Positions 37,555 to 59,712 of a stretch of DNA of 64,000 bases are shown in pieces. Positions within the stretch are counted from its first letter, which is position 1. Each line of letters opens with the position of its first letter. The notes beneath the pieces are model-generated. The model made no database searches, was not told where the DNA came from, and saw nothing but the letters and a program-made list of their open reading frames with translations. Origin of the DNA: Limnohabitans sp. Jir61 (lineage in GTDB: Bacteria > Pseudomonadota > Gammaproteobacteria > Burkholderiales > Burkholderiaceae_C); assembly GCF_003063545.1 (NCBI RefSeq), contig NZ_NESD01000004.1, positions 124,001 to 188,000 of the forward strand, written 5' to 3'. A program made the position numbers and the translations under genes.

Positions 37555-37565
37555 TGGAGTTCTGT

Positions 37566-38289: not shown

Positions 38290-38307
38290 TTGTCATCAAG
38301 TTGTTAA
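38290..38307 (+). promoter_or_regulatory. Candidate Pho box for the GT4 glycosyltransferase
   Basis: TTGTCAT (38290-38296), spacer CAAG, TTGTTAA (38301-38307): 11-bp period. It ends only 14 bp before the ATG at 38322, so the mRNA leader would be very short or the true start lies further in. Confidence 0.55.
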
Positions 38308-38321
38308 ATTCAAGCGACACC

Positions 38322-39563: not shown

Positions 39564-40799
39564 TCATCGAAATTGTCGCCACAGTAACAGGCACAAGGGT
39601 GCAATGCCTGCCACCAGCAACGTCGCCACCAACAGCATGATGAAGCCCAAGGGCACCCCAAAAGCCAATAAGGTGGTGTAGGCGGTCAGCATCAACAACA
39701 CGCACAAGTTTTCATTAAAACCTTGCACAGCAATGGATCGTCCTGCACTGAGCACTTGCATGCCACGGTGTTGAAGCAAGGCATTCATGGGCACAAGCAG
39801 CATGCCGCCCGACACGCCAATACACAGCAATAACAGCACTGCTACCCACAGGTCAGTGACCATCACGATCACTGGTAACAAAACCGCGAGTAGCAAACCC
39901 CAAGGTAACGCTTGACGGGCTGAATGCAGTTTGAAATTTCTGCCTGCGAAAAAAGCCCCTGCGATCACGCCTACTGCAACCAAAGCTTGAAGGTAAGCTC
40001 CAGTTTTCAATGTCATGCCAAGTGTTTGCTGGGCCCACACTAGAACAGCAAACTGCATCACTGCGCCTACCCCCCAATACAGAGTGGTGACATACAAAGA
40101 CACACCACCCAGTGGGTCTCGCCATAGTTTACGGTTCGATTTCCAAAATGTTGTGAACTTCATGGCGTGCAATGACAGGGGTGATAGCCGCACGTTTTGA
40201 CCCATGGGCTTTAACCCAAAGTTCAGCACTGCTGCCGTTACATAAACACCCACGATCGCAACCAATGCTGGGAGCGTCTCAGTCTGCACCCCAAAGGATG
40301 CAACCGATGACAAAACAAATGTCAGCTCTTTCAAAGTGCCAGCCTCGGTCAAGCCTGTCAAAGCACCGCCTAACGCAATGCCAAAAATTACCGAGAGCAC
40401 TACCGAGACCTCAAGCCATGCATTTGCACGAACTAACAACCTCGGTGGCACTGACTCTGTGACCAACCCATATTTAGAAGGCGCATACACCGATGCACCC
40501 AGACCAATCAGTGCAAAAGCAAAAACAGGATGCAAGCCAGACAACAAGACGAACACGCCCAAAATCTTGAGCGCATTCATATAGGCCATCAAACGGTTTT
40601 TTTGAAATGCATCGGCCACAGGCCCCACCACAGATGCCAGAACAACATATGCCAAGGTCAAAGAGAACTTCAACAGTGGTGCCCACCAACCAGGGTATCC
40701 CTGCTCTTTTAAAAAAAAGATTCCTAAAATGAGCAGTGCATTGTCCGCAAGTGCCGAAGCAAACTGAGCACCAATGAGGAAATAAAAACCCTTAGGCAT
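39564..40799 (-). CDS. lplT: Lysophospholipid transporter LplT-like (MFS)
   Basis: A 411-aa major facilitator protein with about eleven helices. The N-terminal FYFLIGAQFASALADNALLI, the loop PVADAFQKNRLMAYMN and IGLGASVYAPSKYGLV match LplT, which flips lysophospholipids inward across the inner membrane for re-acylation. It lacks the fused acyltransferase/ligase (Aas) seen in some homologues. It overlaps ugd by 8 bp in the same direction, so it is co-translated with it. Here it could recycle lysolipids during membrane remodelling (inference). Confidence 0.8.
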   Translation of the reverse strand: MPKGFYFLIGAQFASALADNALLILGIFFLKEQGYPGWWAPLLKFSLTLAYVVLASVVGPVADAFQKNRLMAYMNALKILGVFVLLSGLHPVFAFALIGLGASVYAPSKYGLVTESVPPRLLVRANAWLEVSVVLSVIFGIALGGALTGLTEAGTLKELTFVLSSVASFGVQTETLPALVAIVGVYVTAAVLNFGLKPMGQNVRLSPLSLHAMKFTTFWKSNRKLWRDPLGGVSLYVTTLYWGVGAVMQFAVLVWAQQTLGMTLKTGAYLQALVAVGVIAGAFFAGRNFKLHSARQALPWGLLLAVLLPVIVMVTDLWVAVLLLLCIGVSGGMLLVPMNALLQHRGMQVLSAGRSIAVQGFNENLCVLLMLTAYTTLLAFGVPLGFIMLLVATLLVAGIAPLCLLLWRQFR

Positions 40800-42213
40800 C
40801 CAGCGATAACACGTTTTCAGAAATCGGATCTACCGCGAGGTTGATCAGTTCGTTGCGACGGCCAATGCCTTGATAGGCGATGCCAAGGTCTGCCAAAGCA
40901 TCTGGGTTATACAAGTTACGACCATCCAAGATGTACGGCGTACGCATGCTGAGCTTCATGGCTTGGAAATCTGGGTTATGGAAATTCTTCCACTCTGTCA
41001 GGATCAACAAAGCATCGACGCCCTTCAACGCATCCATGTCATGGGCAACAAGCGTGAAATTCTTCAACAGTGCTTCTTGGCCTTCGAAATCGATCTTGAG
41101 TGCAGCCATGGCCTCGTGGCCTGCAACAGGGTCATAAGCTGTGACTTTGGCACCATGCTGCAGCAAGCTTTTGATCACCGCGCGGCTAGGTGCTTCACGC
41201 ATGTCATCGGTATTGGGTTTAAATGCCAAACCCCAAATCGCAATTTTTCGACCGGTGAGATCCTTACCTAAACGCGCGACCAAACGATCAACCAGCAACG
41301 TCTTTTGACGCTCATTGACTTGCTCAGTTGCTGCAACCACTTGCATTTCCTGGCCATGCGCCATGGCCGTACTGACCAAGGCTTGTGTGTCTTTTGGAAA
41401 GCAGCTACCACCGTACCCACAACCTGCATATAAAAAACTGTAACCAATGCGCTTGTCAGCACCTATGCCGCGACGAATTTGATCTACATCAGCACCTAAG
41501 GCATCCGCTAAGTTGGCAATTTCATTCATGAATGAAATACGTGTGGCCAACATAGCATTGGCTGCGTACTTGGTGAGTTCAGCACTGCGCACATCCATCC
41601 AAACTGTGCGCGAATGATGACGGTTAAAACTGGCATACAAGTCACCCATCATGCGCTGGCTTTTTTCATGATGAATACCAGCATCGACACCCACCACGAT
41701 TCGATCAGGGCGCATGAAGTCGTCAATCGCAGCGCCTTCTTTCAAGAACTCTGGGTTAGACACCACATCAAACATTTCTGTTGCCATGCCTCGTTGCATT
41801 AACTCGTGCTTGACAGCATCACGGACCCGATCAGCCGTGCCCACGGGAACAGTTGATTTGTTCACAATGAGTTTGAAATCTTTGAGGTTACGCCCAATCA
41901 TGGCAGCGACGGACAGAACATGACCCAAATCGGCCGAGCCATCTTCTTGTGCAGGAGTACCTACTGCGATGAACAAAATATCGCCGTGATCTATCGCATC
42001 TTGCGCATCGGAAGTGAAACGAATTCTGCCATCCAAGCGGTTGCGTGAGAGAAGTTCTTTCAAGCCCGGCTCATAGATAGGCACCTCACCCTCTTGCAAC
42101 ATCTTGACTTTGTTTTCGTCTTTGTCAAGACATACCACTTTGAAACCAAGATCAGACAAACAAGCGCCTGTGACCAAACCCACATAACCTGAACCGATGA
42201 CTGTGACTCGCAT
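40792..42213 (-). CDS. ugd: UDP-glucose 6-dehydrogenase
   Basis: A 473-aa UDP-glucose/GDP-mannose dehydrogenase: MRVTVIGSGYVGLVTGACL (NAD fold), VNKSTVPVGTA, the catalytic Cys in GYGGSCFPKDT, and the C-terminal WGLAFKPNTDDMREAPS domain. It oxidises UDP-glucose twice to UDP-glucuronate. AGGAGG lies seven bases before the ATG at 42213. It leads a two-gene unit with lplT. Close to two glycosyltransferases and plcP, the likely use of UDP-glucuronate is glucuronosyl-diacylglycerol, a phosphorus-free acidic lipid; exopolysaccharide use cannot be excluded. Confidence 0.93.
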   Translation of the reverse strand: MRVTVIGSGYVGLVTGACLSDLGFKVVCLDKDENKVKMLQEGEVPIYEPGLKELLSRNRLDGRIRFTSDAQDAIDHGDILFIAVGTPAQEDGSADLGHVLSVAAMIGRNLKDFKLIVNKSTVPVGTADRVRDAVKHELMQRGMATEMFDVVSNPEFLKEGAAIDDFMRPDRIVVGVDAGIHHEKSQRMMGDLYASFNRHHSRTVWMDVRSAELTKYAANAMLATRISFMNEIANLADALGADVDQIRRGIGADKRIGYSFLYAGCGYGGSCFPKDTQALVSTAMAHGQEMQVVAATEQVNERQKTLLVDRLVARLGKDLTGRKIAIWGLAFKPNTDDMREAPSRAVIKSLLQHGAKVTAYDPVAGHEAMAALKIDFEGQEALLKNFTLVAHDMDALKGVDALLILTEWKNFHNPDFQAMKLSMRTPYILDGRNLYNPDALADLGIAYQGIGRRNELINLAVDPISENVLSLDA

Positions 42214-42273
42214 AAATTTCCTCCTGAATGCGGTCATCGTTACAGAAGATGATGAAAGGAATAAGAAGAAAAA

Positions 42274-42341: not shown

Positions 42342-42725
42342 CTAAGTTGGTTGCCAATGTGCAAGACCCATGGTCAGTATCACGCGCAAATGCATGGCTA
42401 AATTTTCAAGCCCTTGAATTGTCGTTTCTTGTTCGGCAAACCTAACGATGAAAGACTCGTGACGGTGCGGAAATTCGATTGCAATGACATCAGGCACAAA
42501 ACCGACTGGGCATTGAATACGAATGGCCGGGTATCTTCCCTCGAACCGATTGCTGCAGTTGAATCGTATGTGACGCAGGCTAGAGAACTCTTTGAATGAT
42601 TCAATCAATTTCGGTAACAAATCATCCTTGACATCAAGGTAATCCATGAAGCGATGTGTATCTCGCATGTAGGCCTCAAAACTTGGATCACTGAGGCTAT
42701 TGGATAAAAAATGCAGCGCACTCAA
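42342..42725 (-). CDS. Unknown 127-aa protein at the end of the lipid-remodelling operon
   Basis: No family recognised. It is a soluble, mixed alpha/beta protein (NSLSDPSFEAYMRDTHRFMD; RYPAIRIQCPVGFVPDVIA). There is no signal peptide or membrane helix. The start is TTG at 42725, overlapping the glycosyltransferase stop as TTGA, so it is translationally coupled. An intrinsic terminator follows. Because it is the last of four overlapping genes with olsB, plcP and a glycosyltransferase, it probably has a helper role for lipid remodelling, but nothing in the sequence shows which. Confidence 0.6.
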   Translation of the reverse strand: MSALHFLSNSLSDPSFEAYMRDTHRFMDYLDVKDDLLPKLIESFKEFSSLRHIRFNCSNRFEGRYPAIRIQCPVGFVPDVIAIEFPHRHESFIVRFAEQETTIQGLENLAMHLRVILTMGLAHWQPT

Positions 42726-43789
42726 GGATGAACCTCTTCGCCTATTTGAATCGCACGCTCAATTGGCACCAAGTGTTGCTCGAACAATCGCGTTGATTCG
42801 TCCCAACTGAATGTCAACGCTTGTGCTCGTGCTTCTGAGCGAGAAATTTTCACTGCTTCCAGACTCGCATAAGCCAAGTCTTCATGGAGTACGCCCCCTT
42901 TGCGGTGATGCGGATACTCTGCATCTGGCCGCAAAACTTCAAGCGGACCATCTACTGGATAGGCAGCCACAGGTGTACCGCATGCCATCGCCTCGAGCAT
43001 CACCAAGCCAAAGGTTTCATTGCGACTCGGGAAAGTGAACACATCGGCACTCGCATAAACACGGGCTAATTCATCACGAGGCAACACCCCCAACCAGCGA
43101 ACATGGTGAAACTTGTCTCTTAGCTCATTTTCGAGTGGCCCAACACCACACACCACTTTGCTGCCGTGCCAGGGCATAGCTAAAAAGCTATCAATATTTT
43201 TTTCATAGGACACACGCCCAACATACAAAGCAATGGGGCGAGGCAAATCATCTAAATCCGGATGATTTGTGACAGTTTCAGCATAGCCAAACAAATGCAT
43301 GTCGACACCATGCGTCCAACTGCGTAAATTTTTAAAGCCCCAACCATCGAGCAAGCGCATCACACCTTGCGTCGGCACCATCACGCCAGCCGAAGGTTTG
43401 TGAAAGTGACGAAATATCGCATAGCCAATCCACAGTGGAATGTGCAAGGCCGCTTTGAGTACTTCAGGAAATCGCGTATGAAATGCCGTTGTGAACGGCA
43501 ATTCATATTTCAAACAATATTTGCGTGCAGCCCAGCCTAATGGCCCCTCGGTCGCCACATGAATCACATCAGGTTGAAACGCATCTAACTGTTTTGCCAA
43601 CTGCGAATAAGGCTTCACGGCCAAATCAATGCCTGCATAACCAGGACAAGGACGTGTTTTAAACAGGTCTGGATGAATCACTTCCACCAGATGACCTTTG
43701 GCATTGAGCTGATCCACCAGCTCAACCAAAGTGGTCACAACACCATTGATTTGAGGACGCCACGCGTCTGTGATCAGTGCAATTTTCAT
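42722..43789 (-). CDS. GT4-family glycosyltransferase, probable diacylglycerol glycosyltransferase
   Basis: A 355-aa GT4 enzyme: ITDAWRPQINGVVTTLVELV and HVATEGPLGWAARKYCL in the acceptor domain, ALYVGRVSYEKNIDSFL and SRNETFGLVMLEAMACGTPV in the donor domain. It overlaps plcP by ATGA. Linked plcP-agt pairs make glycolipids from phospholipid-derived diacylglycerol in phosphate-starved marine alphaproteobacteria; the same gene pairing supports that role here. Sugar donor is not evident: UDP-glucuronate from the neighbouring ugd, or UDP-glucose. Confidence 0.82.
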   Translation of the reverse strand: MKIALITDAWRPQINGVVTTLVELVDQLNAKGHLVEVIHPDLFKTRPCPGYAGIDLAVKPYSQLAKQLDAFQPDVIHVATEGPLGWAARKYCLKYELPFTTAFHTRFPEVLKAALHIPLWIGYAIFRHFHKPSAGVMVPTQGVMRLLDGWGFKNLRSWTHGVDMHLFGYAETVTNHPDLDDLPRPIALYVGRVSYEKNIDSFLAMPWHGSKVVCGVGPLENELRDKFHHVRWLGVLPRDELARVYASADVFTFPSRNETFGLVMLEAMACGTPVAAYPVDGPLEVLRPDAEYPHHRKGGVLHEDLAYASLEAVKISRSEARAQALTFSWDESTRLFEQHLVPIERAIQIGEEVHP

Positions 43790-44556
43790 GCTACTTTTGC
43801 CAGTTCTGGTTTTTCTACAACGATGGGGTCGGTTTGCCAGTACAGCAAAGACAACTCACCTTGTTCGTTTTCTACCAAGGCACTGCGACTCTCTACCCAA
43901 TCACCATCGTTGCAATACAACACGCCATTCACATCGCGAATTTCTGCTCGATGAATGTGGCCACACACCACACCTTGATAACCATGCTTCGCAGCTTCGT
44001 GCGCCACGGCATTCTCAAAGTCAGTGACGTAGTTCAGCGCTTTCTTTACCTTGTGCTTGAGGTAAGCAGACAAAGACCAATAAGGCAAACCCAAACGACC
44101 ACGCATGTTGTTTAGGTAGCGGTTGAGCTTGAGTGTGAACTCATACAAATAGTCACCCACATAGGCAAGCCATTTCGCTTGCTGCACTACGGCATCAAAA
44201 TAGTCGCCATGAATCACCCACAACTGACGACCATCCGCAGTTTTGTGAACAGCTTGATCTACCACTTCAATCCCCCCAAAATGGTGGTCTAAGAAGTGAC
44301 GCGCAAACTCATCGTGGTTGCCAGGCACATAAATCACACGTGTGCCTTTGCGTGCTTTACGCAACAATTTTTGAATCACATCGTTGTGCGCTTGCGGCCA
44401 ATACCAACGACGACGTAATTGCCAACCATCGATGATGTCGCCTACAAGGTACAAGTAGTCGCTGGTGTGCTCTTTCAAAAAGTCCAACAAAGCGTCAGCT
44501 TGACAGCCGGGAGTACCCAAATGCAGGTCAGAAATGAAGATGGCTCTGTAATGCAT
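43786..44556 (-). CDS. plcP: PlcP-like phospholipase C (metallophosphoesterase)
   Basis: A 256-aa calcineurin-fold phosphoesterase. Metal motifs are FISDLHLGT, VGDIIDGW, VPGNHDEFAR, WVIHGDYFD and CGHIHRAEI. By motif alone it also resembles LpxH-type UDP-diacylglucosamine hydrolases, but the RRRWYWPQ insertion and operon context match PlcP, the Mn-dependent intracellular enzyme that splits phosphatidylcholine/ethanolamine/glycerol to diacylglycerol. ATG 44556 overlaps the olsB stop by one base; its own stop overlaps the glycosyltransferase start. Role inferred: produce diacylglycerol for the glycosyltransferase while freeing phosphate. Confidence 0.8.
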   Translation of the reverse strand: MHYRAIFISDLHLGTPGCQADALLDFLKEHTSDYLYLVGDIIDGWQLRRRWYWPQAHNDVIQKLLRKARKGTRVIYVPGNHDEFARHFLDHHFGGIEVVDQAVHKTADGRQLWVIHGDYFDAVVQQAKWLAYVGDYLYEFTLKLNRYLNNMRGRLGLPYWSLSAYLKHKVKKALNYVTDFENAVAHEAAKHGYQGVVCGHIHRAEIRDVNGVLYCNDGDWVESRSALVENEQGELSLLYWQTDPIVVEKPELAKVA

Positions 44557-45404
44557 CAAGCACCCAAGAAGTGTTTGCGGTAACGCGGTGGCATGTCATT
44601 GATCTTCATCAGCATGGGCAGGTCAGCCGTGTTGAAGTCGGGATCCCATGCAGGAGCACCCAGCACTTTTGCGCCTAAGCGCAAATAACCTTTGATCAAT
44701 GCAGGCGGCTCAAACGCAGGGTTCACTTCCCACTGCTCCACGGGCAAAGCCAGACGCGGCGTGACTTGGTTTTCAATGCCAGCCAAATGTGTTTTCTTGA
44801 GTTGGTGCCAAATACTGGCCGCCACTTCACCACTGACAACACCTTGGTGCAGCATCGGGATACTGGCACAGCCGATCATCACATCCAGCTTGTTACGCAC
44901 CATGAACTCAGCCAGTGCGCCCCACAAGGCCATGATGACGCCGCCGTGGCGGTGCTCAGGGTGCACGCAGCTGCGACCCAACTCAACCATACGTTCGCGA
45001 TATTGGCGCAAACGGGTCAGATCAAATTCCAAGTCTGAATAGGTACTGCCAATGCGTTTGGCTTGAGCCGGTGTCAACACGCGATAGGTACCGATGACTT
45101 GCTCTGTCACATCGTCGCGAATGACCAAGTGCTCACAGAAGTCATCAAACAAATCGATGTCATGTCCTGGAATGCTGTCTTTCAAACGTGCCCCCATTTC
45201 AGTGGCAAACACGTCATAGCGTAGACGCTGTGCTTCCCGTACTTCGTCTTGGTGCTTGGCCCATTCAACGATCAGGGCTGGGCGACTTTCAGTTTTTTGC
45301 AAGGAGACAGAAACTTTTTGATTGTCAAGATCGTTTCGATGAAGCGACCCCCGAGGTACATCGATGAACGACAAAGGCATGGTTGGGTTTGGCAGTTCTT
45401 TCAT
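44556..45404 (-). CDS. olsB: Ornithine lipid synthesis N-acyltransferase OlsB-like
   Basis: A 282-aa GNAT-fold acyltransferase of the OlsB family: RLRYDVFATEMGARL, DFCEHLVIRDD, VELGRSCVHPEHR and GCASIPMLHQGV. OlsB joins a 3-hydroxyacyl chain from ACP to the alpha-amino group of ornithine, giving lyso-ornithine lipid. AAGGA lies six bases before the ATG. It is first in a four-gene overlapping operon and has a Pho-box-like repeat upstream (45472-45489). The partner OlsA is divergent. Some relatives use glutamine or lysine, so the amino acid is inferred. Confidence 0.87.
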   Translation of the reverse strand: MKELPNPTMPLSFIDVPRGSLHRNDLDNQKVSVSLQKTESRPALIVEWAKHQDEVREAQRLRYDVFATEMGARLKDSIPGHDIDLFDDFCEHLVIRDDVTEQVIGTYRVLTPAQAKRIGSTYSDLEFDLTRLRQYRERMVELGRSCVHPEHRHGGVIMALWGALAEFMVRNKLDVMIGCASIPMLHQGVVSGEVAASIWHQLKKTHLAGIENQVTPRLALPVEQWEVNPAFEPPALIKGYLRLGAKVLGAPAWDPDFNTADLPMLMKINDMPPRYRKHFLGA

Positions 45405-45471
45405 GGTCGGTCCTTAGTGAATCAATGCCGAGAATTCTTATCAATGCATGTGAATTAACCGCGAAGATTGC

Positions 45472-45489
45472 ATGAAATATTCGTGACAA
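45472..45489 (-). promoter_or_regulatory. Candidate Pho box for the olsB-plcP operon
   Basis: Minus strand TTGTCAC (45483-45489), spacer GAAT, ATTTCAT (45472-45478). It ends 67 bp before the olsB ATG. Confidence 0.6.
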
Positions 45490-45500: not shown

Positions 45501-45518
45501 CCTTCACCAATTTGTCAC
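45501..45518 (+). promoter_or_regulatory. Candidate Pho box for olsA
   Basis: Plus strand CCTTCAC (45501-45507), spacer CAAT, TTGTCAC (45512-45518). It ends 28 bp before the olsA ATG and sits 11 bp from the oppositely directed olsB site. Confidence 0.55.
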
Positions 45519-45546
45519 ACACCACCTCTATCCTTCTTAGCCAATC

Positions 45547-46290
45547 ATGCTGATCAAATACCTACGACTCGTACACGCCTTTGGCCGCGCCTTCTGGATT
45601 TTGTGGATCAAATTTCCTCGCTTGAGCCGCGAGCGAAAACTCGAAGAAATCAAAATGTGGTCTCGACACACATTAGAAATTCTTGGCATACGAGTGACTT
45701 ACGAAACATCCCTCACCCAAATCGAAACATCGCCCTCGCCTCTCATGTTGGTGGCAAATCATGTGTCATGGGTTGATGCGTTGATCATTCAATCCATTCA
45801 GCCCAGCATCTTTGTCGCGAAGTCAGAGGTGCGAAGTTGGCCTATCGTTGGCAGCATTGCCACAGGGTGCGGCGTGGTGTTTGTTGATCGTGGCTCACCT
45901 AGCTCGGCACGACGCATGGTGGATGATTTATCGAGTGCGCTACACAACGGCTACTGCGTTGCAGGTTTTCCTGAAGGCACCAGCAGCGAAGGCAGCACCG
46001 TCAGCTTGTTTCATGCCAACTTATTTGAAGCGGCCATCAATCATCACATTCAGGTACAACCATTAGCGATTCGTTACACCAACCCTCAAACTGGTGATTT
46101 ATGTTTGAAGGCTGCTTTCATTGGTGAAATTGGTTTCGTTCAATCATTGCACCAAGTGATGACATCAACGGGTATTCATGCCAAGGTGCACGCTGGTGAA
46201 TTGCTATCGCCGCTCGGCCATTCACGCAGGACCTTGGCGCATTTGTCTCATCGCAGCGTCAGCAGCCAGCTTGAACTGCTCAACGCATAA
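45547..46290 (+). CDS. olsA: 1-acyl-glycerol-3-phosphate acyltransferase-type enzyme, probable OlsA
   Basis: A 247-aa PlsC-family acyltransferase: catalytic NHVSWVD, substrate-binding FPEGTSS and FVDRGS. PlsC and OlsA share these motifs; divergence from olsB with paired Pho-box-like sites argues for OlsA, which adds the ester-linked fatty acid to lyso-ornithine lipid. The protein has a short N-terminal membrane segment. Its 3' end overlaps the convergent TRAP permease gene by 11 bp. Confidence 0.8.
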   Translation: MLIKYLRLVHAFGRAFWILWIKFPRLSRERKLEEIKMWSRHTLEILGIRVTYETSLTQIETSPSPLMLVANHVSWVDALIIQSIQPSIFVAKSEVRSWPIVGSIATGCGVVFVDRGSPSSARRMVDDLSSALHNGYCVAGFPEGTSSEGSTVSLFHANLFEAAINHHIQVQPLAIRYTNPQTGDLCLKAAFIGEIGFVQSLHQVMTSTGIHAKVHAGELLSPLGHSRRTLAHLSHRSVSSQLELLNA

Positions 46291-48082
46291 AAGACGCTAC
46301 CAAACTGGGCAAACCTGTGGCGAGTATTGGTAGCCACGAAATTAATAAGGTGCCCACAAAAATAGCGACCAAAGCTGGAGCAACCGAAGCTGCCACGGTG
46401 CGTATGGGTTGCTTGAACACGGCTGATGCAAAGTAAATGTTCATGCCTGCGGGAGGGCATAAAAATCCCATCTCCATATTCGCCAAAAAGATGATGCCAA
46501 AGTGCACAGGATCAATGCCATAGCTCGTGGCAAGTGGCAATAACAACGGCACCAACACAACAATGGCCGCATAGATTTCCATCAATGCACCAGCAGCAAA
46601 TAAGAACACGTTCAAGGCCAGCAAGAACACCCATTTATTTTGCGTGACGCTTTGCACCCATTCGGTCGCCAAGTCTGGGATGCCCGCATCAACCAAGTAG
46701 TTGGTCAATCCCAAAGCCATCCCCAAGATCAACATCACACCACCAATGATTTGGGCGCACTGTGACAAACACTCACCCAATTTTTTGGCATCTAATTCTC
46801 GATGCGCAAAGGCTTGGGTCGCAACAGCGTAAATGGCGGTAAGTGCTGCGCTTTCCGTTGGCGTGGCAAACCCACTGCCGAGCGACCCAATGGCCACTAC
46901 AGGTGCCAACAGCTCCCATTTGGCGTGCCACGCGGCATCACGCAGCGCCGTCTTGCTGAATGAGGGCTTTGCTTGCGGCACCTGCTCAGCTTTGTCATGG
47001 CGTAAATAGCCACCAAAGATCAATAAACACACCACCATGACCACAGCGGGGACCACCCCTGCCATGAACATGGTGTTGATGGGTACACGCGCAATGATGG
47101 CGTACATGATGAGTGGCACTGATGGGGCCAACAACACGCCCAAGGCACTGGCACTGGTCACCAAGCTGATGCCTTTACGGTCTGGATAGCCCACGCCTTG
47201 CAGCAAAGGCAATAGCAAACCGCCCAAGGCCAAAATCGTCACACCGCTGCCACCCGTGAATGCAGTAAAACAAGAGCACAGAACAGTTGCAGCGATCACA
47301 GTGCCAGTTTTGCCACCACCGAACAAGGCCACAAATACAGCACCCAAACGCTTCGCAGCGCCGGTGCCTGCAAAAATCAAACCAGCCAAGGTGAACAAGG
47401 GCAACGCAGGTAATGATGGGTTGACCGTGATTTGGTAATGCGACAAGGCAATCGAAGCCAGCGGCAAGCCTTCTTGCCAAAACAAGGCCAAAGCAAGACC
47501 ACCTAACACGGCAAATATGGGGGCACCAAAAGACAACAGCAATGCCAAAACCAAGACCCAAGGCAACAGCGGCAAAGCTTCACCATCAAATCTAAAGGCC
47601 AACCACATACCCAACATAGGAGCGGTCACAGCACACGCTAACTTGACGCCTATATGTTGTGCGCATCGCGCACCTAGCTTCATCGCTAAGCATGCAAAGC
47701 CAATCGGCATGGCAGCTTCAAACCACCACACAGGCATGCCGTAAGCCAGCATTTGTTCAGCAGACATTTCGCTGAGCACCAGTTGTCCACTCGCCCAGGT
47801 CAACACACCACACACTACTGCAGCGCCATACTGCCCCACAGCATAAAAGCGAGGCACCAAAACACCCAAGCTGGTGAGATGACCAAAACGCTCCGCTGCT
47901 ATGGCACCTGCCATAGCCATGAGCAAACCCAAATGCTGGACCACCACTGGGGCGTTTTCAATGCCTTTACCCATCATGGGACGTGACAAAATTTCGACCA
48001 ACGGAATCAAGGCCATGAAGACCAGTGCGAGCGAGGCCAACGATGTATCGGCCTGCATCAAGCCTTTGAGAAAACGCCCCAT
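46280..48082 (-). CDS. TRAP transporter fused QM permease (TPAT system)
   Basis: A 600-aa membrane protein joining the small (DctQ-like, about residues 1-160) and large (DctM-like, from about 165) TRAP permease subunits. The M part has the family blocks FTGGSGVTILALGGLLLPLL and LANMEMGFLCPPAGMNIYFA. It drives sodium- or proton-coupled uptake of whatever the binding protein delivers. ATG 48082 overlaps the stop of the binding-protein gene. A fused QM with a TatT-type partner is the layout of the TPAT systems first described in Treponema pallidum. Confidence 0.88.
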   Translation of the reverse strand: MGRFLKGLMQADTSLASLALVFMALIPLVEILSRPMMGKGIENAPVVVQHLGLLMAMAGAIAAERFGHLTSLGVLVPRFYAVGQYGAAVVCGVLTWASGQLVLSEMSAEQMLAYGMPVWWFEAAMPIGFACLAMKLGARCAQHIGVKLACAVTAPMLGMWLAFRFDGEALPLLPWVLVLALLLSFGAPIFAVLGGLALALFWQEGLPLASIALSHYQITVNPSLPALPLFTLAGLIFAGTGAAKRLGAVFVALFGGGKTGTVIAATVLCSCFTAFTGGSGVTILALGGLLLPLLQGVGYPDRKGISLVTSASALGVLLAPSVPLIMYAIIARVPINTMFMAGVVPAVVMVVCLLIFGGYLRHDKAEQVPQAKPSFSKTALRDAAWHAKWELLAPVVAIGSLGSGFATPTESAALTAIYAVATQAFAHRELDAKKLGECLSQCAQIIGGVMLILGMALGLTNYLVDAGIPDLATEWVQSVTQNKWVFLLALNVFLFAAGALMEIYAAIVVLVPLLLPLATSYGIDPVHFGIIFLANMEMGFLCPPAGMNIYFASAVFKQPIRTVAASVAPALVAIFVGTLLISWLPILATGLPSLVASFMR

Positions 48083-49104
48083 CACTTACCCTTACCTGTG
48101 CGATAAGCCTTGAGGTGACGGAACACCTCATCAAAGGTATCAGCGGGCACCAATGTGCCGCGAATACGTGGGTAGAGTTTGTCAGCCAAGTCGTTCCATG
48201 CGCGCATTTGTTCTGCGTTAGGCTTATTCACCACCAAACCGCGTTTTTTCATGGCCTCTACAGCCTCTTCAACTTCTTGGCGGGCTTTGATACGAATTTG
48301 TACGCCTGCTTTGTCGCTGGCTGCACGTACGGCAACTTGCGTTTCAGGTGTCATTTCGTCCCAAGACTTTTTGGTCACTACCAAAGCGCCAACAATGGGC
48401 GCCCAGTTGATTTCCAACATATTTGGCGACATGGTGTAAATCTGACTGGCCAAGGCAAAGTAAGGCGTAGATGGCACCACATTGATCATGCCGGTTTGCA
48501 CGGATGGCAGGATATCGCTGGTTTCTAGTGGCACAGGTGTATAGCCCATGCTCTTCATGATCTCTTGCTGGTCGGCTTCGCCTCCCCATGCAAAAAACTT
48601 CATCTTTTGATAGTCATCTGGTTTGAAGGCAGGCTCTTTGGAAAAGAAGCGCACCCAACCTGCATCGCCCCATGCCAAAACCACAAAACCTTTATCTAGG
48701 AATTTTTTCTCCATCGCAGGACGCATTTTTTCGCGAACGTAGTCCACCTCCTCCCACGACTTAAACAACAAGGGCATAGATTGCAATGCAGCAATAGAGG
48801 GCTCAATTTCACGCAAACCCACCACTGAAAGTAAAGCACCTTGCAATTGACCAATGCGCATCCGACGTGCCATCTCGGTCTCACCGCCTTGGCTGCCATC
48901 TGGATACACCACAAACTTCGATGCGCCTCCTTGTGCGGTGCGCCAAGCCTCACCAATCTCCATGAGTTGACGGTGATAAAGCGAGTTCTTTGGAGCCAAA
49001 GTGCCAAAGCGTAATTGTTTGTCCGCAGACCAAGACGCTGTCTGAGCACACAACAAACCCAGTCCCACGCACACTTGCAAACATGATTTCAAAAATTTAG
49101 ACAT
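48082..49104 (-). CDS. TRAP substrate-binding protein (TatP/DctP type)
   Basis: A 340-aa DctP-family periplasmic protein with a signal peptide (MSKFLKSCLQVCVGLGLLC, cleavage after SWSA). Mature features are LRFGTLAPKNSLYH, FVVYPDGSQGGETEMARRMRIG and FFAWGGEADQQEIMKSMGY. The usual organic-acid-binding Arg of classic DctP (in the R-Y-x-P block) is not obvious, in keeping with TPAT binding proteins, which have a more hydrophobic cavity. It lies between the TatT-type gene (9 bp upstream) and the permease. Confidence 0.85.
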   Translation of the reverse strand: MSKFLKSCLQVCVGLGLLCAQTASWSADKQLRFGTLAPKNSLYHRQLMEIGEAWRTAQGGASKFVVYPDGSQGGETEMARRMRIGQLQGALLSVVGLREIEPSIAALQSMPLLFKSWEEVDYVREKMRPAMEKKFLDKGFVVLAWGDAGWVRFFSKEPAFKPDDYQKMKFFAWGGEADQQEIMKSMGYTPVPLETSDILPSVQTGMINVVPSTPYFALASQIYTMSPNMLEINWAPIVGALVVTKKSWDEMTPETQVAVRAASDKAGVQIRIKARQEVEEAVEAMKKRGLVVNKPNAEQMRAWNDLADKLYPRIRGTLVPADTFDEVFRHLKAYRTGKGK

Positions 49105-49113
49105 TCAATGCTT

Positions 49114-49989
49114 TCAAAAAAGTTCATCTACGGATGAGAGCAACCACTGCGCACGCTCGCGCATCACTTCGTTTTGCAAACTGCGATGCTTTTGACTGAT
49201 GTCAATAGCTTGCTTGAGCAACAACTCAAACTGCTTTCGATCCTCTGCTGGCAAGGCCACACCTTCTGCCTTGGCCACAAATGGCCCTGCTTCGCGGCCA
49301 TCTCCAAGCGCAATCGCTTGATCGAAGTAGGCTTGCGCTTTTTGACGAGAACCACCCACTTTTGCACCCTCTAAGGTGCCCATCAGACTAGCCAAAGCAC
49401 CTTGACCGTAATCGGGTTGAACTTGCCATGCAAGTTCGGCCAAGCGCATAGACAACGGCAAGTCAGCGACTAAATCTGGGTCATCCTTGGACATGGATAT
49501 CCAACCGCCCAAGGATGCTGCCGCCCAATAAGCCAGTGGTACTTGATTAGCTTGAAGTTTGGGATGCTTCTTGCTATCGGCCTGCTTCAAAGCCTCGCTA
49601 AATCCGGGTGCGCTTTTTTCGAGAGACGTCATGGCGTGACGATGCGCGCGCGCATACAAGCGAGCAGCGCGTTCACGCATTTCAGCTGCAGCCTTTGGAT
49701 TTTTGCCATCTATCTTTTCTGCATCAAACGCCACGAAGGCATAGGCATATTGCACAAAACCTGCTGATACCGATTCAGCCAACTTCAGATGACCTGGCGT
49801 TTCTTTGAGTACCGACTCTGAAAATTTCAAATAAAAAGCACTGGCCTCACGTGCAAGTTGCAAATCATCTTCACTTGACATCCCCTGCCCTGACAAAGCC
49901 TGAGCCGTTTGATCGATCACAAATGGACGAACGGCGCAACCAGACAAGACAACCAGAAGTGCCAAACAGGAAACAAAACGATAAGTAAT
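49114..49989 (-). CDS. TRAP-associated TatT-type TPR lipoprotein, probable ATT start
   Basis: A 291-aa helical-repeat protein of the TatT family (TPR-like helices; DDLQLAREASAFYLKFSE, LARRYA-type repeats, YGQGALASLMGTLEGAK). TatT forms a trimer that binds TatP and has a hydrophobic pore. A lipoprotein signal is evident (RFVSCLALLVVLSGC) but the first usual start codon, TTG 49965, would leave only nine residues before the lipobox Cys. An ATT at 49987-49989 gives a complete signal and has AGAGGT six bases upstream, so I place the start there. First gene of the three-gene TPAT operon. Confidence 0.75.
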   Translation of the reverse strand: MTYRFVSCLALLVVLSGCAVRPFVIDQTAQALSGQGMSSEDDLQLAREASAFYLKFSESVLKETPGHLKLAESVSAGFVQYAYAFVAFDAEKIDGKNPKAAAEMRERAARLYARAHRHAMTSLEKSAPGFSEALKQADSKKHPKLQANQVPLAYWAAASLGGWISMSKDDPDLVADLPLSMRLAELAWQVQPDYGQGALASLMGTLEGAKVGGSRQKAQAYFDQAIALGDGREAGPFVAKAEGVALPAEDRKQFELLLKQAIDISQKHRSLQNEVMRERAQWLLSSVDELF

Positions 49990-50046
49990 AAGAACACCTC
50001 TTGAGAGTATCTAGTCCAAGGAATTCAAAAAATATAAGTGGGTAAT

Positions 50047-50064
50047 GTGAATATTCAGTGACAT
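50047..50064 (-). promoter_or_regulatory. Candidate Pho box for the TPAT operon
   Basis: Minus strand ATGTCAC (50058-50064), spacer TGAA, TATTCAC (50047-50053). It resembles the olsB site and ends 57 bp before the proposed tatT-like start. It abuts the plus-strand site for ppk2. Confidence 0.45.
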
Positions 50065-50082
50065 CCGTCATCAAGTTGAAAC
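50065..50082 (+). promoter_or_regulatory. Candidate Pho box for ppk2
   Basis: Plus strand CCGTCAT (50065-50071), spacer CAAG, TTGAAAC (50076-50082). The first half and spacer match the site at 38290. It ends 36 bp before the ppk2 ATG. Confidence 0.5.
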
Positions 50083-50118
50083 AGTCCAACACGATGATTC
50101 ATGCCAAAGGGAATGACC

Positions 50119-51000
50119 ATGACAGATCAACACAAACTCAACGAAGAGCAAATTCAACGCCTACGCGATGACATCCTAGATACGCTGGATGAAGAGTTAG
50201 AAATGTCGATTGACGAAGATGGTGACAACACCGATCGCGTCAAATACTTTCGTGAACTGCTGCGCTTGCAAGGCGAGTTGGTTAAGTTGCAAGACTGGGT
50301 GGTCGCTACCAAACAAAAAGTAGTGATCTTGTTTGAAGGTCGTGATGCGGCAGGCAAAGGTGGCGTGATCAAGCGCATCACACAACGCCTCAATCCACGC
50401 GTGTGCCGCGTTGCAGCCTTACCAGCACCGAATGACCGTGAACGCACACAATGGTATTTCCAGCGCTACGTAGCGCATTTGCCTGCAGCGGGTGAAATTG
50501 TGTTGTTTGACCGCAGTTGGTACAACCGCGCAGGTGTGGAACGCGTCATGGGGTTTTGTAATGACGACGAATACGAAGAATTTTTCCGCACCGTGCCCGA
50601 GTTTGAAAAAATGTTGGCGCGTAGCGGCATCACTCTGATCAAGTATTGGTTCTCGATCACAGATGATGAGCAACACGCCCGCTTCTTGGGTCGCATTCAC
50701 GATCCGCTCAAGCAATGGAAACTCAGCCCAATGGACTTAGAAAGCCGTCGTCGCTGGGAAGACTACACCGTGGCTAAAGAAACCATGATTGAGCGCACAC
50801 ACATTCCAGAAGCGCCTTGGTGGGTGGTGCAAGCAGTCGATAAAAAAAGTGCGCGCCTCAACTGTATTCATCACTTGCTGAACCATTTCGAATACCACGA
50901 GATTGAACACCCAGAAGTTCAACTACCCAAGCGGGTTCGCAATCCTGATTACATTCGCCACCCAGTGCCAGATGACATGATCGTGCCAGAACACTATTGA
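50119..51000 (+). CDS. ppk2: Polyphosphate kinase 2 (class I)
   Basis: A 293-aa PPK2: Walker A FEGRDAAGKGG, FDRSWYNRAGVERVMGF (Walker B/lid region) and the C-terminal HLLNHFEYHEIEHPEVQLP. It phosphorylates ADP or GDP with polyphosphate, turning stored polyphosphate into nucleoside triphosphates. Single-domain length fits class I. ATG 50119 is preferred because AAAGGG (50106-50111) lies seven bases upstream; ATG at 50101 lacks a site. Divergent from the TPAT operon, with dgkA downstream. Confidence 0.92.
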   Translation: MTDQHKLNEEQIQRLRDDILDTLDEELEMSIDEDGDNTDRVKYFRELLRLQGELVKLQDWVVATKQKVVILFEGRDAAGKGGVIKRITQRLNPRVCRVAALPAPNDRERTQWYFQRYVAHLPAAGEIVLFDRSWYNRAGVERVMGFCNDDEYEEFFRTVPEFEKMLARSGITLIKYWFSITDDEQHARFLGRIHDPLKQWKLSPMDLESRRRWEDYTVAKETMIERTHIPEAPWWVVQAVDKKSARLNCIHHLLNHFEYHEIEHPEVQLPKRVRNPDYIRHPVPDDMIVPEHY

Positions 51001-51007
51001 GATGGCT

Positions 51008-51025
51008 ATTTCATAACAACGTCAT
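51008..51025 (+). promoter_or_regulatory. Weak Pho-box-like repeat before dgkA
   Basis: ATTTCAT (51008-51014), four bases, ACGTCAT (51019-51025). Each half matches the consensus at five of seven positions; distance to the dgkA ATG is 24 bp. Confidence 0.3.
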
Positions 51026-51049
51026 AAACCATACTTATAGTTGTATGCG

Positions 51050-51475: not shown

Positions 51476-51493
51476 CCGTCACACGCCAGTCAT
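51476..51493 (+). promoter_or_regulatory. Candidate Pho box for the CorA-like gene
   Basis: Plus strand CCGTCAC (51476-51482), spacer ACGC, CAGTCAT (51487-51493), both six of seven to the consensus. It ends 80 bp before the start codon at 51573. Confidence 0.6.
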
Positions 51494-51572
51494 AAAAATT
51501 TAATAAATTACAAAAAGGTAGTGCATCATTAATTTTTTAATATTCAACTAGCGTCGACAGTTTGGCCAATCC

Positions 51573-52878: not shown

Positions 52879-53103
52879 ATGAGCCACCATAAACACGAAA
52901 CAACGCAAATTAAATCCGACGGCTTGCGCTATAGCAGCAAGAAAAACGGTTCTCCCTTCGAGGGCACAGGAAGAACAGGTGAAATGATGAGTTGCATCAA
53001 ATGCAGCAAACACAAGCCAAGATCTACAGGGTCATTTCGACGCTTCTTAAATGCCAACCATTTTTTCTGTGGTGATTGCCGCGCCGTACCCGTGCAGAGT
53101 TAG
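52879..53103 (+). CDS. Small CxxC/CxxC protein, possible zinc ribbon
   Basis: A 74-aa hydrophilic protein with two cysteine pairs, SCIKCSKH and FFCGDCRA, spaced 23 residues apart, the layout of a zinc ribbon. The N-terminus is His/Lys rich (MSHHKHETTQ). No family recognised. It begins one base after the stop of the CorA-like gene, so it is probably in the same mRNA, and its last four bases overlap the end of the convergent phoR gene. Confidence 0.6.
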   Translation: MSHHKHETTQIKSDGLRYSSKKNGSPFEGTGRTGEMMSCIKCSKHKPRSTGSFRRFLNANHFFCGDCRAVPVQS

Positions 53104-54449
53104 TGGTTGGCGTGCCAACGATTGGCTGGGAAAATCAATCTAAAGCACGAGCCATGACCCAGCTCACTGGTAATGGAGAGGCTTCCACCATGACGTTGCA
53201 TCACATGTTTAACAATGGCTAGACCAAGACCCGTACCACCAGACTCACGCGAGCGACTTCTGTCGACCCGATAAAAACGTTCAGTCAAACGTGGCAAGTG
53301 TTCTGCGGCTATGCCTGCCCCCGTATCTCGCACATCGATCAATAAGCTGCCATCGATACCTTGATCAACCGATACGTTAATACTTCCACCCCCAGGCGTG
53401 TAACGAACTGCGTTGCTCACCAAGTTTGACAAGGCACTTTGCAATTCTCGCGATTCACCCATCAAAGTTGCCGCGCTAAGTGTGGGCTCTACCTTGAATT
53501 GAATGGCATGAGGATTCACGCCATGTGTGATGGTGTTTGACAAACCTTTTGCCTCTTGTTCGCAAGAGTCAATCAATTGCTTCAACGGCAACGTACTCAA
53601 AACGCTAGGGATAGGACTTCCCTCTAAACGAGACAACGTTAATAAGTCTTCAACCAAGCCTTGCATACGTTCAGCTTGCACAGCCATCAGGCCTAAATAG
53701 CGTTTTTTTTCTTCTTCATTCAAATCGAGAGTTTGCAGAGTCTCCACAAAACCGGACATGACCGTCAATGGCGTACGTATTTCATGGGAAACATTGGCCA
53801 CAAAATCACGGCGCATGGCTTCTGCTTGCTCAATCAATGTGACGTCACGCGTGAGCAAAAGTTGCTTACCCTCACCATAGCGATGGCGCTGCAACGAAAT
53901 ACGAACAGGTCGTTCAATGCGGTTTTTGTGGCCTGCAATCACCACAGGCTCAATCGGCTGCTCCACTGCCATGTATTCCGTAAATACAGGATCACGCAAC
54001 AAATTACCGACACGTTGCATCACATCTCGTTCTGGATGAATACCTAAATGCGATGCAGCAGTTTTGTTACACCATTCGATTTGCGATCGCGCATCTAACA
54101 TCACCACACCATTGGGTGAGGTTTGAATGGCCAACAAAAAATCTTTCAAGCGCTGCTCACTGGCTGCAATGGTCCGCTCACGCTCACGCAAAAGCTTGCG
54201 TGCACGATCTAAAACAATGCCCCACCAACCCGACATGTGAGGTGCCAAACCTAAATCACCGTGGCGCAACCATGAGCGCACACGGTAACCCCGCCAAGCA
54301 TCGACTAAGGCCCAAGCCAAGCCTGCCAATAGCGCACCACTCAACAAGTAAAGCGATGGAGGTTGCCTGTCGCTGATCACGGCCCACGAAAAACCAATCG
54401 CGGCGCCAAACGCTAGCAGAGAGAAAAAAGAAAGAAATCGACTAATCAC
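53100..54449 (-). CDS. phoR: Phosphate regulon sensor histidine kinase
   Basis: A 449-aa PhoR: two N-terminal membrane helices, a short linker, a PAS domain (SPNGVVMLDARSQIEWCN), HisKA with phospho-acceptor His in VANVSHEIRTPLTV, and HATPase with NLVSNAVRYTP, DTGAGIAAEHLP and GTGLGLAIVKH. It phosphorylates PhoB when phosphate is low, under control of PhoU and Pst. GTG start with AAGG five bases upstream, 16 bp after phoB. Last gene of the pst-pho run. Confidence 0.95.
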   Translation of the reverse strand: MISRFLSFFSLLAFGAAIGFSWAVISDRQPPSLYLLSGALLAGLAWALVDAWRGYRVRSWLRHGDLGLAPHMSGWWGIVLDRARKLLRERERTIAASEQRLKDFLLAIQTSPNGVVMLDARSQIEWCNKTAASHLGIHPERDVMQRVGNLLRDPVFTEYMAVEQPIEPVVIAGHKNRIERPVRISLQRHRYGEGKQLLLTRDVTLIEQAEAMRRDFVANVSHEIRTPLTVMSGFVETLQTLDLNEEEKKRYLGLMAVQAERMQGLVEDLLTLSRLEGSPIPSVLSTLPLKQLIDSCEQEAKGLSNTITHGVNPHAIQFKVEPTLSAATLMGESRELQSALSNLVSNAVRYTPGGGSINVSVDQGIDGSLLIDVRDTGAGIAAEHLPRLTERFYRVDRSRSRESGGTGLGLAIVKHVMQRHGGSLSITSELGHGSCFRLIFPANRWHANH

Positions 54450-54465
54450 ATGAACCTTACGTGAT

Positions 54466-55152
54466 TTAGGACTGGTGGGTGATTCTGTATCCTACGCCAC
54501 GAACAGTTTCTACCATGCTTCCCGCATCGCCCAAGGCCTCGCGCAGGCGTTTGACATGCACATCCACCGTGCGCTCTTCAATGAACACATGGTCACCCCA
54601 TACACGGTCAAGCAACTGGCTACGGCTGTGCACGCGTTCGGCGTGGTGCATCAAATAGTTGAGCAGCTTGAATTCTGTGGGGCCCAATTTGATGCCTTGG
54701 TCGTTGAAGCTCACACGGTGTGTTGAGCCATCCAGCTTCAAAGCACCGATGGTGACCACATCACTGGCTTGCTCAGGCGCACGGCGGCGCAGCACTGCGC
54801 GAATACGGGCTAACAACTCTTGCGTGGAGAAAGGTTTGGTGATGTAGTCATCCGCACCCGCATCCAAGCCAGCAATTTTGTCTGGCTCGTCGCCGCGAGC
54901 GGTGAGCATGAGAATCGGCGTGGTCTTGGTACGTGGATCCGCACGCCAACGACGTGCCAACTCAATGCCACTTTGACCAGGCAACATCCAATCCAACAAG
55001 ATCACATCAGGTAGCACTTCGTCGATGTGCTTTTGAGCTGCAACGCCATCGGATGCCAGCAAGGGCAGCATGCCGTTGTGTCGCAAATTGATCGCAATGA
55101 GTTCAGCAATCGCCGACTCATCTTCAACCACCAAGACGCGTGCAACTTTCAT
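54466..55152 (-). CDS. phoB: Phosphate regulon response regulator
   Basis: A 228-aa OmpR/PhoB-type regulator: receiver domain with the phospho-acceptor Asp in VILLDWMLPGQSG and LTARGDEPDKIAGLDAGADD, then a winged helix (RSQLLDRVWGDHVFIEERTV, HVKRLREAL). It binds Pho boxes; the many Pho-box-like repeats in the window are its probable targets. It lies between phoU and phoR in one run. Confidence 0.96.
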   Translation of the reverse strand: MKVARVLVVEDESAIAELIAINLRHNGMLPLLASDGVAAQKHIDEVLPDVILLDWMLPGQSGIELARRWRADPRTKTTPILMLTARGDEPDKIAGLDAGADDYITKPFSTQELLARIRAVLRRRAPEQASDVVTIGALKLDGSTHRVSFNDQGIKLGPTEFKLLNYLMHHAERVHSRSQLLDRVWGDHVFIEERTVDVHVKRLREALGDAGSMVETVRGVGYRITHQS

Positions 55153-55169
55153 TTTTGAAATACCTTCAA

Positions 55170-55871
55170 TTAGCCCATGGATGACTCAACATCCGCCAAG
55201 GGGGTGTGACGTACGTCTTCACCCTTGACGATGTAGATGACAAACTCAGCAATGTTTTTGGAATGATCACCAATGCGCTCGATGGCTTTGGCCACAAACA
55301 ACAAATCCAAGCTGGCCGAGATGGTGCGTGGGTCTTCCATCATGTATGTGATGAGCTTGCGCACAAAACCGTCGAACTCTTTGTCAATCGCATCGTCTTC
55401 ACGCAAAATGGTCACAGCCATGGGTACATCCAAACGCGCAAATGAATCAAGCGCTTTGCGCAACAAACCTGAGGCCATTTCAGCCGACACACGCAAATCT
55501 CCCGAAGGCAATGAGCGTGGTGCTGAGCTTTCGATGATGGACTTGACCATGCGGGCAATCTTGGCAGCCTCGTCACCCACACGCTCCAAGTTGGCTGTGG
55601 TTTTGGACATGGCCATGAGCAAGCGCAAGTCACGTGCTGTCGGTTGGCGACGACCAATGACGGAGGCGATTTCGCGGTCAATTTCAACTTCAAAGGAGTT
55701 GACTTTGTTTTCCGTGACGAGCACATCGTCAGCGGCTTCTGGGCTGAACTGAGACAAGGCATAGACTGCTTGGCGAATTTGTGATTCGACCAAACCGCCC
55801 AACTCCATCACGTGTGAGGAGATGTTGTTGAGATCGGAATCAAACTGTGAGGACAGGTGTTTATCTGGCAT
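55170..55871 (-). CDS. phoU: Phosphate signalling protein PhoU
   Basis: A 233-aa PhoU with two three-helix bundles; metal-cluster motifs are partly visible as EVEIDREIASVI and ERVGDEAAKIA / ERIGDHSKNIAEF. It links PstB to PhoR and keeps the regulon off when phosphate is plentiful. It is 12 bp after pstB. Confidence 0.95.
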   Translation of the reverse strand: MPDKHLSSQFDSDLNNISSHVMELGGLVESQIRQAVYALSQFSPEAADDVLVTENKVNSFEVEIDREIASVIGRRQPTARDLRLLMAMSKTTANLERVGDEAAKIARMVKSIIESSAPRSLPSGDLRVSAEMASGLLRKALDSFARLDVPMAVTILREDDAIDKEFDGFVRKLITYMMEDPRTISASLDLLFVAKAIERIGDHSKNIAEFVIYIVKGEDVRHTPLADVESSMG

Positions 55872-55883
55872 GGTGTTCTCCTA

Positions 55884-56660: not shown

Positions 56661-56680
56661 TTTTGAATTCCACTGTGAAA

Positions 56681-57535: not shown

Positions 57536-57545
57536 AGATAACCTC

Positions 57546-58538: not shown

Positions 58539-58580
58539 GACAGACCCTAAACTCATTGGAACACCTTGCTTTTTAAAACT

Positions 58581-58621
58581 AAAAATCCGTCGGCACGCTA
58601 CATAGGGCCGACGGAATTTTT
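58581..58621 (-). terminator. Hairpin/attenuator between pstS and pstC
   Basis: Minus strand: ATTCCGTCGGC and GCCGACGGAT form a long stem around a 12-base loop, followed by TTTTTAG. It lies 13 bp after the pstS stop. It would let pstS be made in excess over the permease genes, with read-through to pstC. Confidence 0.75.
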
Positions 58622-58633
58622 GATTCATTCAAA

Positions 58634-59665: not shown

Positions 59666-59712
59666 GAGATTCCTTCAATTGGTTAGAACAGATGTGACTT
59701 TATCTAGCCATT

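Follow-up and report, generated by a model that had tools for sequence, protein, structure and literature searches.

In the TPR-protein-associated TRAP transporter (TPAT; TPR, tetratricopeptide repeat; TRAP, tripartite ATP-independent periplasmic) of Treponema pallidum, the T-component TatT has a hydrophobic pore and a linear hydrophobic molecule was seen in its crystal; the receptor TatP is described as a lipoprotein, and Ala is reported at the site of the TRAP arginine in TatP homologues (PMC5812351). We analysed a stretch of 64,000 nucleotides from Limnohabitans sp. Jir61 (positions 124,001 to 188,000 of contig NZ_NESD01000004.1, hereafter the window), which carries a tatT-tatP-tatQM operon among genes for lipids and phosphate uptake. 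The trio itself is of a known kind; what appears to be new, on the evidence of sequence, is a clade of TPATs under phosphate (Pho) control and tied to lipid remodelling, and we propose from its promoters that this clade has been taken into the PhoB regulon of Burkholderiales.

A first-pass annotation of the window stated that no TPAT ligand is established, which holds for TPATs proper in the literature consulted, but not for the wider T-component superfamily: BstC of Methylococcus capsulatus is reported to have a hydrophobic cavity, to bind C-4 methylated sterols and to belong to a lipid-trafficking set with an ABC-type receptor (PMC10942540). In Phaeobacter that degrade phospholipids, ethanolamine is handled by a TRAP system, EtoX, whose receptor is modestly up without phosphate in a table of the same paper (PMC10132767). 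Lipid remodelling based on PlcP has also been published (PMC4796936). In the open-access literature, most subscription papers lying outside this scope, we found no paper that links a TRAP transporter to both ornithine lipid and phosphate starvation, none that links one to the Pho regulon and a Pho box, and no TPAT clade under Pho control with a tie to lipid remodelling.

The tatT-tatP-tatQM operon beside described systems

The list of open reading frames (ORFs) places tatT, tatP and a fused tatQM in a single minus-strand operon, with 9 bp between tatT and tatP and a 4-bp overlap of tatP and tatQM; the operon is convergent with olsA (11-bp overlap) and divergent from ppk2, an arrangement given by the first-pass annotation and confirmed by coordinates and Pfam (Table 1). 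By its anatomy this is a TPAT. It resembles the T. pallidum system (Tp0956, Tp0957, TatQM) in its three genes, its T-component (E 9e-20), its receptor without the TRAP arginine (E 6e-18) and, by Pfam and NCBIfam profiles, its fused QM permease. It differs from that system, as described, in a TatP without a lipobox, in Phe rather than Ala at the arginine site and in a Pho promoter beside lipid-remodelling genes. The lipobox was sought by eye in the signal peptide of TatP and was not found, so the receptor lacks this lipoprotein trait of T. pallidum; we do not treat a lipoprotein receptor as essential to the TPAT class.

With classical DctPQM systems the operon shares the DctP, DctQ and DctM domains, and it differs from them in the extra T-component and in Phe replacing the arginine. 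BstC belongs to the same T-component superfamily and provides a reported lipid-binding member of it (PMC10942540), but its BstABC set is not described with a TRAP receptor or permease, whereas the full TRAP set (DctP, DctQM) is present here; no sterol gene was found among the scanned neighbours in the window, and the locus does not qualify as a BstABC system. With the PlcP/glycosyltransferase and OlsBA sets the likeness is one of neighbours, since the TPAT here has plcP-like, GT4, olsB-like and olsA-like genes next to it.

For tatT, the ATT codon at 49989 (49987-49989), a rare one for initiation, is the more likely start, rather than the TTG at 49965, judging from aligned starts; the position is ATG in one relative (an identical stretch in loci L044 and L048), and moving the start to it yields a normal lipoprotein signal peptide ending in LSGC. 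This lipobox follows a short hydrophobic stretch and has no Asp at +2 (by eye and by pattern); in several relatives the simple lipobox pattern failed to find the lipobox or put it in the wrong place. In TatP, the alignment puts Phe171 where ordinary TRAP receptors have their carboxylate-binding arginine. Phe or Trp takes this position in 51/51 aligned TPAT receptors (50 distinct), whereas the remaining DctP proteins encoded by this genome keep the arginine (8/8). The missing arginine argues only against a classical carboxylate ligand for TatP. TPATs are further marked by a TatT-TatP complex in which a hydrophobic pore and cleft are joined; here, AlphaFold models built from seven close sequences each were of poor quality (mean predicted local distance difference test, pLDDT, 59.6 for TatT and 41.7 for TatP).

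A pstS-type promoter before tatT

The Pho-box-like repeat that had been noted upstream of the operon was borne out. It faces tatT, a -10 element lies 10 nt downstream of its second half-site, and it is kept, in the strict form defined here, at 12/12 near-relative loci including the window (11 distinct, L044 and L048 being the same). In the strict composite pattern, which pstS promoters also fit, two half-sites stand at an interval of 11 bp and TA follows after 10 nt; its half-site letters and 10-nt offset were chosen after viewing the tatT and pstS promoters, and it was in use before the offset had been tallied for pstS. Controls were shuffles, the reversed pattern and loci outside the clade, the script shuffles preserving base composition only. 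A PhoB-regulon promoter has a pair of half-sites spaced by 11 bp where the -35 would be, and a -10 as far away as in pstS; the tatT promoter has this layout.

Within the window the strict pattern matches 5 times, against 0.02 expected in a dinucleotide-preserving scan. The whole 2.63-Mb genome holds five matches, all within the island and lying before olsA, tatT, dgkA, corA and pstS, and the reversed pattern gives two matches in the same genome. All 8 other DctP genes of this genome lack the strict promoter (best score 10).

The same promoter recurs far from Limnohabitans. Drawn from 30 upstream regions (a pstS match was obtained in 31 of the 44 genomes asked), the pstS pattern reads TGTCAY-N5-TGTCAY, and TA stands at offset 10 after the second half-site in 25/25 pstS promoters with a half-site score of at least 9 (30 examined). 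Before tatT, the promoter is strict at 12/22 more distant clade loci and reaches at least 12 of 13 (one mismatch) at 16/22, shuffle means at this threshold being 0.07 and 0.01 for tatT regions; two further clade loci, L052 and L056, score 11. With a matrix of 30 pstS sites, 20 tatT regions from other genera averaged 7.55, and 159 control gene starts taken at these loci averaged 0.25 (p 2e-6). Perfect half-site pairs, [GT]TCA[CT], in 23 tatT regions from other genera had a spacing of 11 in 12 regions and of 22 in 6, any other spacing occurring at most twice, with a shuffle mean of 0.1 at spacing 11; a probably decayed locus (L069 of genome G229) is counted both among these 23 regions and among the 20 of the matrix. 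Twelve other genomes, picked because the tatT site is strict there, gave 67 strict matches vs 1 for the reversed pattern, with the tatT site among the matches in 12/12. A pstS-type promoter before tatT in distant genomes lends the earlier claim of phosphate control strong support independent of the island, and Pho control of the tatT operon in this clade is very probable.

The clade lies within one 27-row group (Shimodaira-Hasegawa-like approximate likelihood ratio test, SH-aLRT, 100) of a TatP tree of 48 rows, from which L038, L041 and L044 (near-duplicates), L069 and L070 are omitted and in which branches are long and the outgroup does not fall on one side of a branch. In this group 17 rows have the strict promoter, 6 have one half-site mismatch and 4 have no box. 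TatT itself is patchy, being found in 25/299 genomes of the family, 35/300 of the order (29 over the cut-off) and 11/398 of the phylum (8 over the cut-off). The 25 include G053 (a weak T-like match without tatP or tatQM) and G229 (a tatT fragment only); the 23 complete TPATs exclude both. At positions 9783-10133 of L069, the lone tatT fragment of G229 stands with a near-Pho box and no tatP or tatQM match within 20 kb, and is probably a decayed TPAT.

Lipid genes adjacent to and co-occurring with the TPAT

The first-pass annotation suggested surveying TatT/TatP neighbourhoods for a recurrent link with olsAB, plcP or pst. Lipid genes do recur, but the partner is mainly a block of psd, AT3 (a class-III aminotransferase-like gene), an Mpo1-like gene and a GT4 glycosyltransferase gene, and not olsAB or pst as such. 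Among nine near relatives (L038-L046), seven keep olsA, olsB and plcP beside the TPAT, the stretches of L045 and L046 ending earlier; in farther relatives the recurrent partner is the psd/AT3/Mpo1-like/GT4 block, often with lplT, ugd, plcP, olsB or ppk2. The block holds together at 20 AT3 loci taken from genomes with and without a TPAT: psd stands with AT3 in 20/20, and 19/20 also have the Mpo1-like and GT4 genes; at L107 neither of the latter two occurs in the 2.9 kb between AT3 and the contig end. Genes in the relatives' loci were called by a codon-position model, which is poor on AT-richer loci.

AT3 is present in 93/299 family genomes. It occurs in 20/23 genomes with a complete TPAT vs 73/276 others (p 1e-8) and, by genus, in 13/15 vs 36/126 (p 2e-5), both p-values uncorrected for kinship; counting G053 and G229 as well gives 22/25 vs 71/274. 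ACR3, an unrelated arsenite exporter used as a control, showed no link (12/25 TPAT genomes vs 30/55, p 0.6). AT3 was picked as a marker after being seen beside the TPAT, and the genomes in which the two are unlinked form the independent part of the test; among family genomes with a complete TPAT unlinked to AT3, 13/16 carry it. The distance between AT3 and the TPAT is no more than about 12 kb in 10/25 genomes having both and in 6/17 genera, the chance rate being taken as about 1 in 100, and in 7/22 when the window's own genus is left out. Three family genomes with a complete TPAT lack AT3, and in two of them the TPAT is near an olsB-like gene (L059, L063). By position in the tree, AT3 is present in the genomes of 22/26 clade rows for which this is known vs 3/21 outside.

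In G251, a genome of another genus (L056), one contig carries the AT3 block, lplT, ugd, the TPAT, ppk2 and then, at about 10-11 kb from tatT, two pstS-like genes; islands of this kind are thus not confined to the genus of the window. Linkage to pst/pho as a general rule was rejected, since outside the genus pstS was seen near the TPAT in G251 only; at L104 and L110 pst adjoins the AT3 block and not the TPAT.

The block has Pho-box-like sites of its own. Before AT3, TA stands at offset 10 in 18/22 non-genus regions having a half-site pair (26 examined), and Mpo1-like promoters show perfect half-site pairs at spacing 11 in 23/26, without TA at offset 10. In the window (34948-39524) and at L101-L120 the block is conserved with such upstream sites, AT3 having 543 aa and a long N-terminal extension, and its product may be a phosphorus-free amino- or glycolipid. 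The recurrent pstS-type promoter, together with the adjacency and co-occurrence of the lipid block, makes Pho control and a lipid link well supported, from genome comparison, for one TPAT clade and not for all TPATs; a role of the TPAT in lipid remodelling is likely.

Coordinates of the window features are given in Table 1. The names olsA, olsB, plcP and agt are those that we take to fit these genes. The listed start of dgkA coincides with the end of its promoter (51041), so the true start is probably slightly downstream.

Table 1. Features of the window around the TPAT operon (positions within the window)
Feature	Position	Strand	Basis and remarks
psd, phosphatidylserine decarboxylase family	34948..35910	-	PF02666; TIGR00163 above cut-off
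AT3, class-III aminotransferase-like, block marker	35880..37511	+	PF00202
Mpo1-like protein of block	37566..38180	-	PF06127 just below cut-off; half-site pairs upstream in relatives
GT4 glycosyltransferase of conserved lipid block	38301..39524	+	profile scan, relatives' loci
lplT, lysophospholipid transporter	39564..40799	-	NF008397 above cut-off
ugd, UDP-sugar dehydrogenase	40792..42237	-	TIGR03026 above cut-off
GT4 glycosyltransferase, agt-like	42722..43789	-	Pfam scan
plcP-like metallophosphoesterase	43786..44559	-	PF12850, PF00149; name by position and homology
olsB-like N-acyltransferase	44556..45404	-	PF13444; top NCBIfam OlsB models, below cut-off
Four 11-bp-spaced half-sites, third degenerate, facing olsB (olsB/olsA intergenic)	45449..45488	-	alignment; conserved in near relatives
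Strict Pho promoter of olsA	45503..45534	+	pattern match
olsA-like O-acyltransferase	45547..46290	+	PF01553; top NCBIfam OlsA models, scores under the cut-offs
tatQM, fused small and large TRAP permease	46280..48085	-	PF04290 DctQ and PF06808 DctM; TIGR00786 above cut-off
tatP, DctP-type receptor	48082..49104	-	PF03480 DctP E 1e-36; TatP(T) Tp0957 3u65/4di3 E 6e-18, 2e-17
tatT, T-component lipoprotein	49114..49989 (ORF from TTG 49965)	-	PF16811 TAtT E 5e-53; PDB 3u64 Tp0956 E 9e-20; aligned starts and lipoboxes
-10 element TATATT	50031..50036 (reads 50036-50031)	-	10 nt after second half-site
Pho box facing tatT	50047..50064	-	ATGTCAC-TGAA-TATTCAC, 11-bp period
Second conserved element, ppk2-facing	50065..50082	+	CCGTCAT-CAAG-TTGAAAC; single good half-site
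ppk2	50101..51000	+	PF03976; TIGR03707 above cut-off
Strict Pho promoter of dgkA	51010..51041	+	composite-pattern match; dgkA ORF listed TTG 51041 to 51445
Strict Pho promoter of corA	51478..51509	+	pattern match; corA gene 51573-52877
phoR, phoB, phoU, pstB, pstA, pstC, pstS	53100..59665	-	named by sequence and order of genes
Strict Pho promoter of pstS	59697..59728	-	pattern match

Other neighbours deserve mention in their own right. The corA gene with a strict Pho promoter in the window encodes a CorA-type magnesium transporter, and a second cluster of CorA-family genes lies near the TPAT in L052, L053 and L056 (Pfam on L053 only). Just beyond pstS, at 60647-62787, the window has an ACR3 arsenite exporter and a DUF3833 protein. 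An ExoD-family gene directly adjoins tatT in L049, L054 and L066 (one cluster; Pfam on L049 and L066). Two loci outside the clade have lipid genes nearby: at L090 (8603-14883) the TPAT stands in an overlapping gene run with a prolipoprotein diacylglyceryl transferase-like (LGT-like) gene, a PSD gene and a gene for a 740-aa protein without a Pfam match, and at L080 a PAP2 phosphatase gene lies just downstream. No common neighbour was found at the unlinked TPAT loci, where Pfam on 30 chosen flanking genes returned CorA, ExoD, a chloride channel, an OPT transporter, GGDEF, folate/IMP enzymes and others.

What the TPAT may carry

We hypothesise that when phosphate is low PhoB would bind the box facing tatT (50047-50064) and turn on tatT-tatP-tatQM along with the pst and lipid-remodelling genes, while phospholipids would be dismantled and replaced by ornithine lipids and glycolipids. 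TatT, a predicted outer-membrane lipoprotein, would take up, from the outer membrane or periplasm, a hydrophobic compound of membrane origin, a freed fatty acid or lysolipid being the likeliest candidate, and pass it to TatP; TatQM would then move the compound inward, the presumed direction, using an ion gradient, for re-use by acyltransferases and recovery of phosphorus. For this full mechanism of hydrophobic import under PhoB, with its candidate ligand, we put the chances at about even. A more specific version, in which the TPAT would under phosphate starvation be an ion-driven retrograde lipid transporter taking lysolipid or fatty acid from the outer membrane via the TatT pore to the cytoplasm, so that phospholipids give up their phosphorus while their acyl chains enter ornithine lipids and glycolipids, is speculative and unlikely.

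Several observations weigh against hydrophobic import under Pho control. The best PDB match of TatP is, narrowly, an ordinary DctP receptor, 4n15 (E 8.5e-19 vs 6e-18 for TatP(T)), which we take to have been solved with a sugar acid, although it keeps the arginine absent from TatP. The outer-membrane placement of TatT is a prediction by the +2 rule of the E. coli Lol system (Asp at +2), as no Asp follows its lipid-bearing cysteine. A matrix from pstS alone misses the tatT box in the window, because the second half-site of that box is TTCAC and not GTCAC; within the window this matrix scores highest on the ppk2-facing element (6.8 bits, shuffle p 0.08); for near relatives, 12 tatT regions compared with 15 controls gave p 0.02, none of them above the controls' 95th percentile. 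The box is missing at 4/22 other clade loci (L058, L063, L064, L067), and no more than 5/26 AT3 promoter regions attain the full score of 12. The co-occurrence p-values ignore kinship. In counts where the 25 TPAT genomes include G053 and G229, as they do for ACR3, plcP (24/25 vs 40/55, p 0.016) and olsB (23/25 vs 42/55, p 0.13) discriminate weakly; both genes are nearly ubiquitous in the family and so say little on the TPAT link, and as discriminating signals they were rejected. The annotation had also looked for a clue to the whole TPAT family, which did not survive: outside the one clade the strict tatT promoter is found at 0/21 loci, AT3 occurs in 3/21 TPAT genomes and the TPAT neighbours are mixed, housekeeping genes included, so Pho control of the whole family was rejected. 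Also outside the clade, the near-identical L088 and L089, which are linked to the AT3 block, score 12 of 13, and at L080 both half-sites are perfect and the -10 is absent.

Other cargoes were weighed. A Pho-controlled TPAT could import a nutrient containing phosphorus or a lipid head group (a glycerophosphodiester, a phosphonate or an ethanolamine-type amine) as a source of phosphorus or nitrogen, and not a hydrophobic lipid. Pho control would fit phosphorus scavenging, and EtoX provides an example of an ethanolamine TRAP system whose receptor is modestly up without phosphate, although the accessible part of that paper names no T-component (PMC10132767). We consider a head-group nutrient rather unlikely, given the hydrophobic pore or cavity of the T-components of T. 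pallidum and BstC (PMC5812351, PMC10942540), the Phe or Trp at the arginine site of 51/51 TPAT receptors, which favours an apolar ligand, and a genomic partner that is a lipid gene block. Alternatively, the TPAT could move a lipid or precursor between membranes for another purpose (for example a sterol-like compound, or the glyco- or aminolipid of the GT4/AT3 block), cytoplasmic import not being its main role. Sterol binding by BstC within a lipid-trafficking set (PMC10942540) points this way. So do the 10/25 genomes in which the TPAT adjoins the AT3/GT4 block, and the LGT-like/PSD run of L090. The partners of BstC, however, are an ABC-type receptor (PMC10942540) and BstA, which we take to be of the RND (resistance-nodulation-division) type, and not TRAP permeases, which are importers; trafficking of this kind is also an improbable main role.

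That the system carries an ordinary organic acid as a carbon source, with a Pho box serving only ppk2 and lipid neighbours there by chance, is largely refuted and very improbable. It would fit the intergenic region shared by tatT and ppk2, the 8 other ordinary DctP receptors of the genome and the preference of the pstS matrix for the ppk2-facing element in the window. Yet the box and its -10 face tatT, and at L039, where dgkA and not ppk2 is the divergent neighbour of tatT, the tatT box persists although the ppk2-facing element has been lost, so a box for ppk2 only was rejected. Genomes whose tatT has no ppk2 beside it also carry the box, the arginine is kept in all 8 other DctP genes, which lack such a promoter, and the lipid linkage and co-occurrence depart widely from chance.

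The TPAT class was established with crystal structures from an organism that does not lend itself to manipulation; the literature consulted gives neither their ligand nor the physiological condition in which they act. The Pho promoters found in free-living relatives would indicate when the TPAT should be on (under phosphate limitation), which genes are its partners (those of lipid remodelling) and which class of ligand to seek. The Pho-controlled TPAT clade would thereby open the ligand question to direct test in harmless bacteria.

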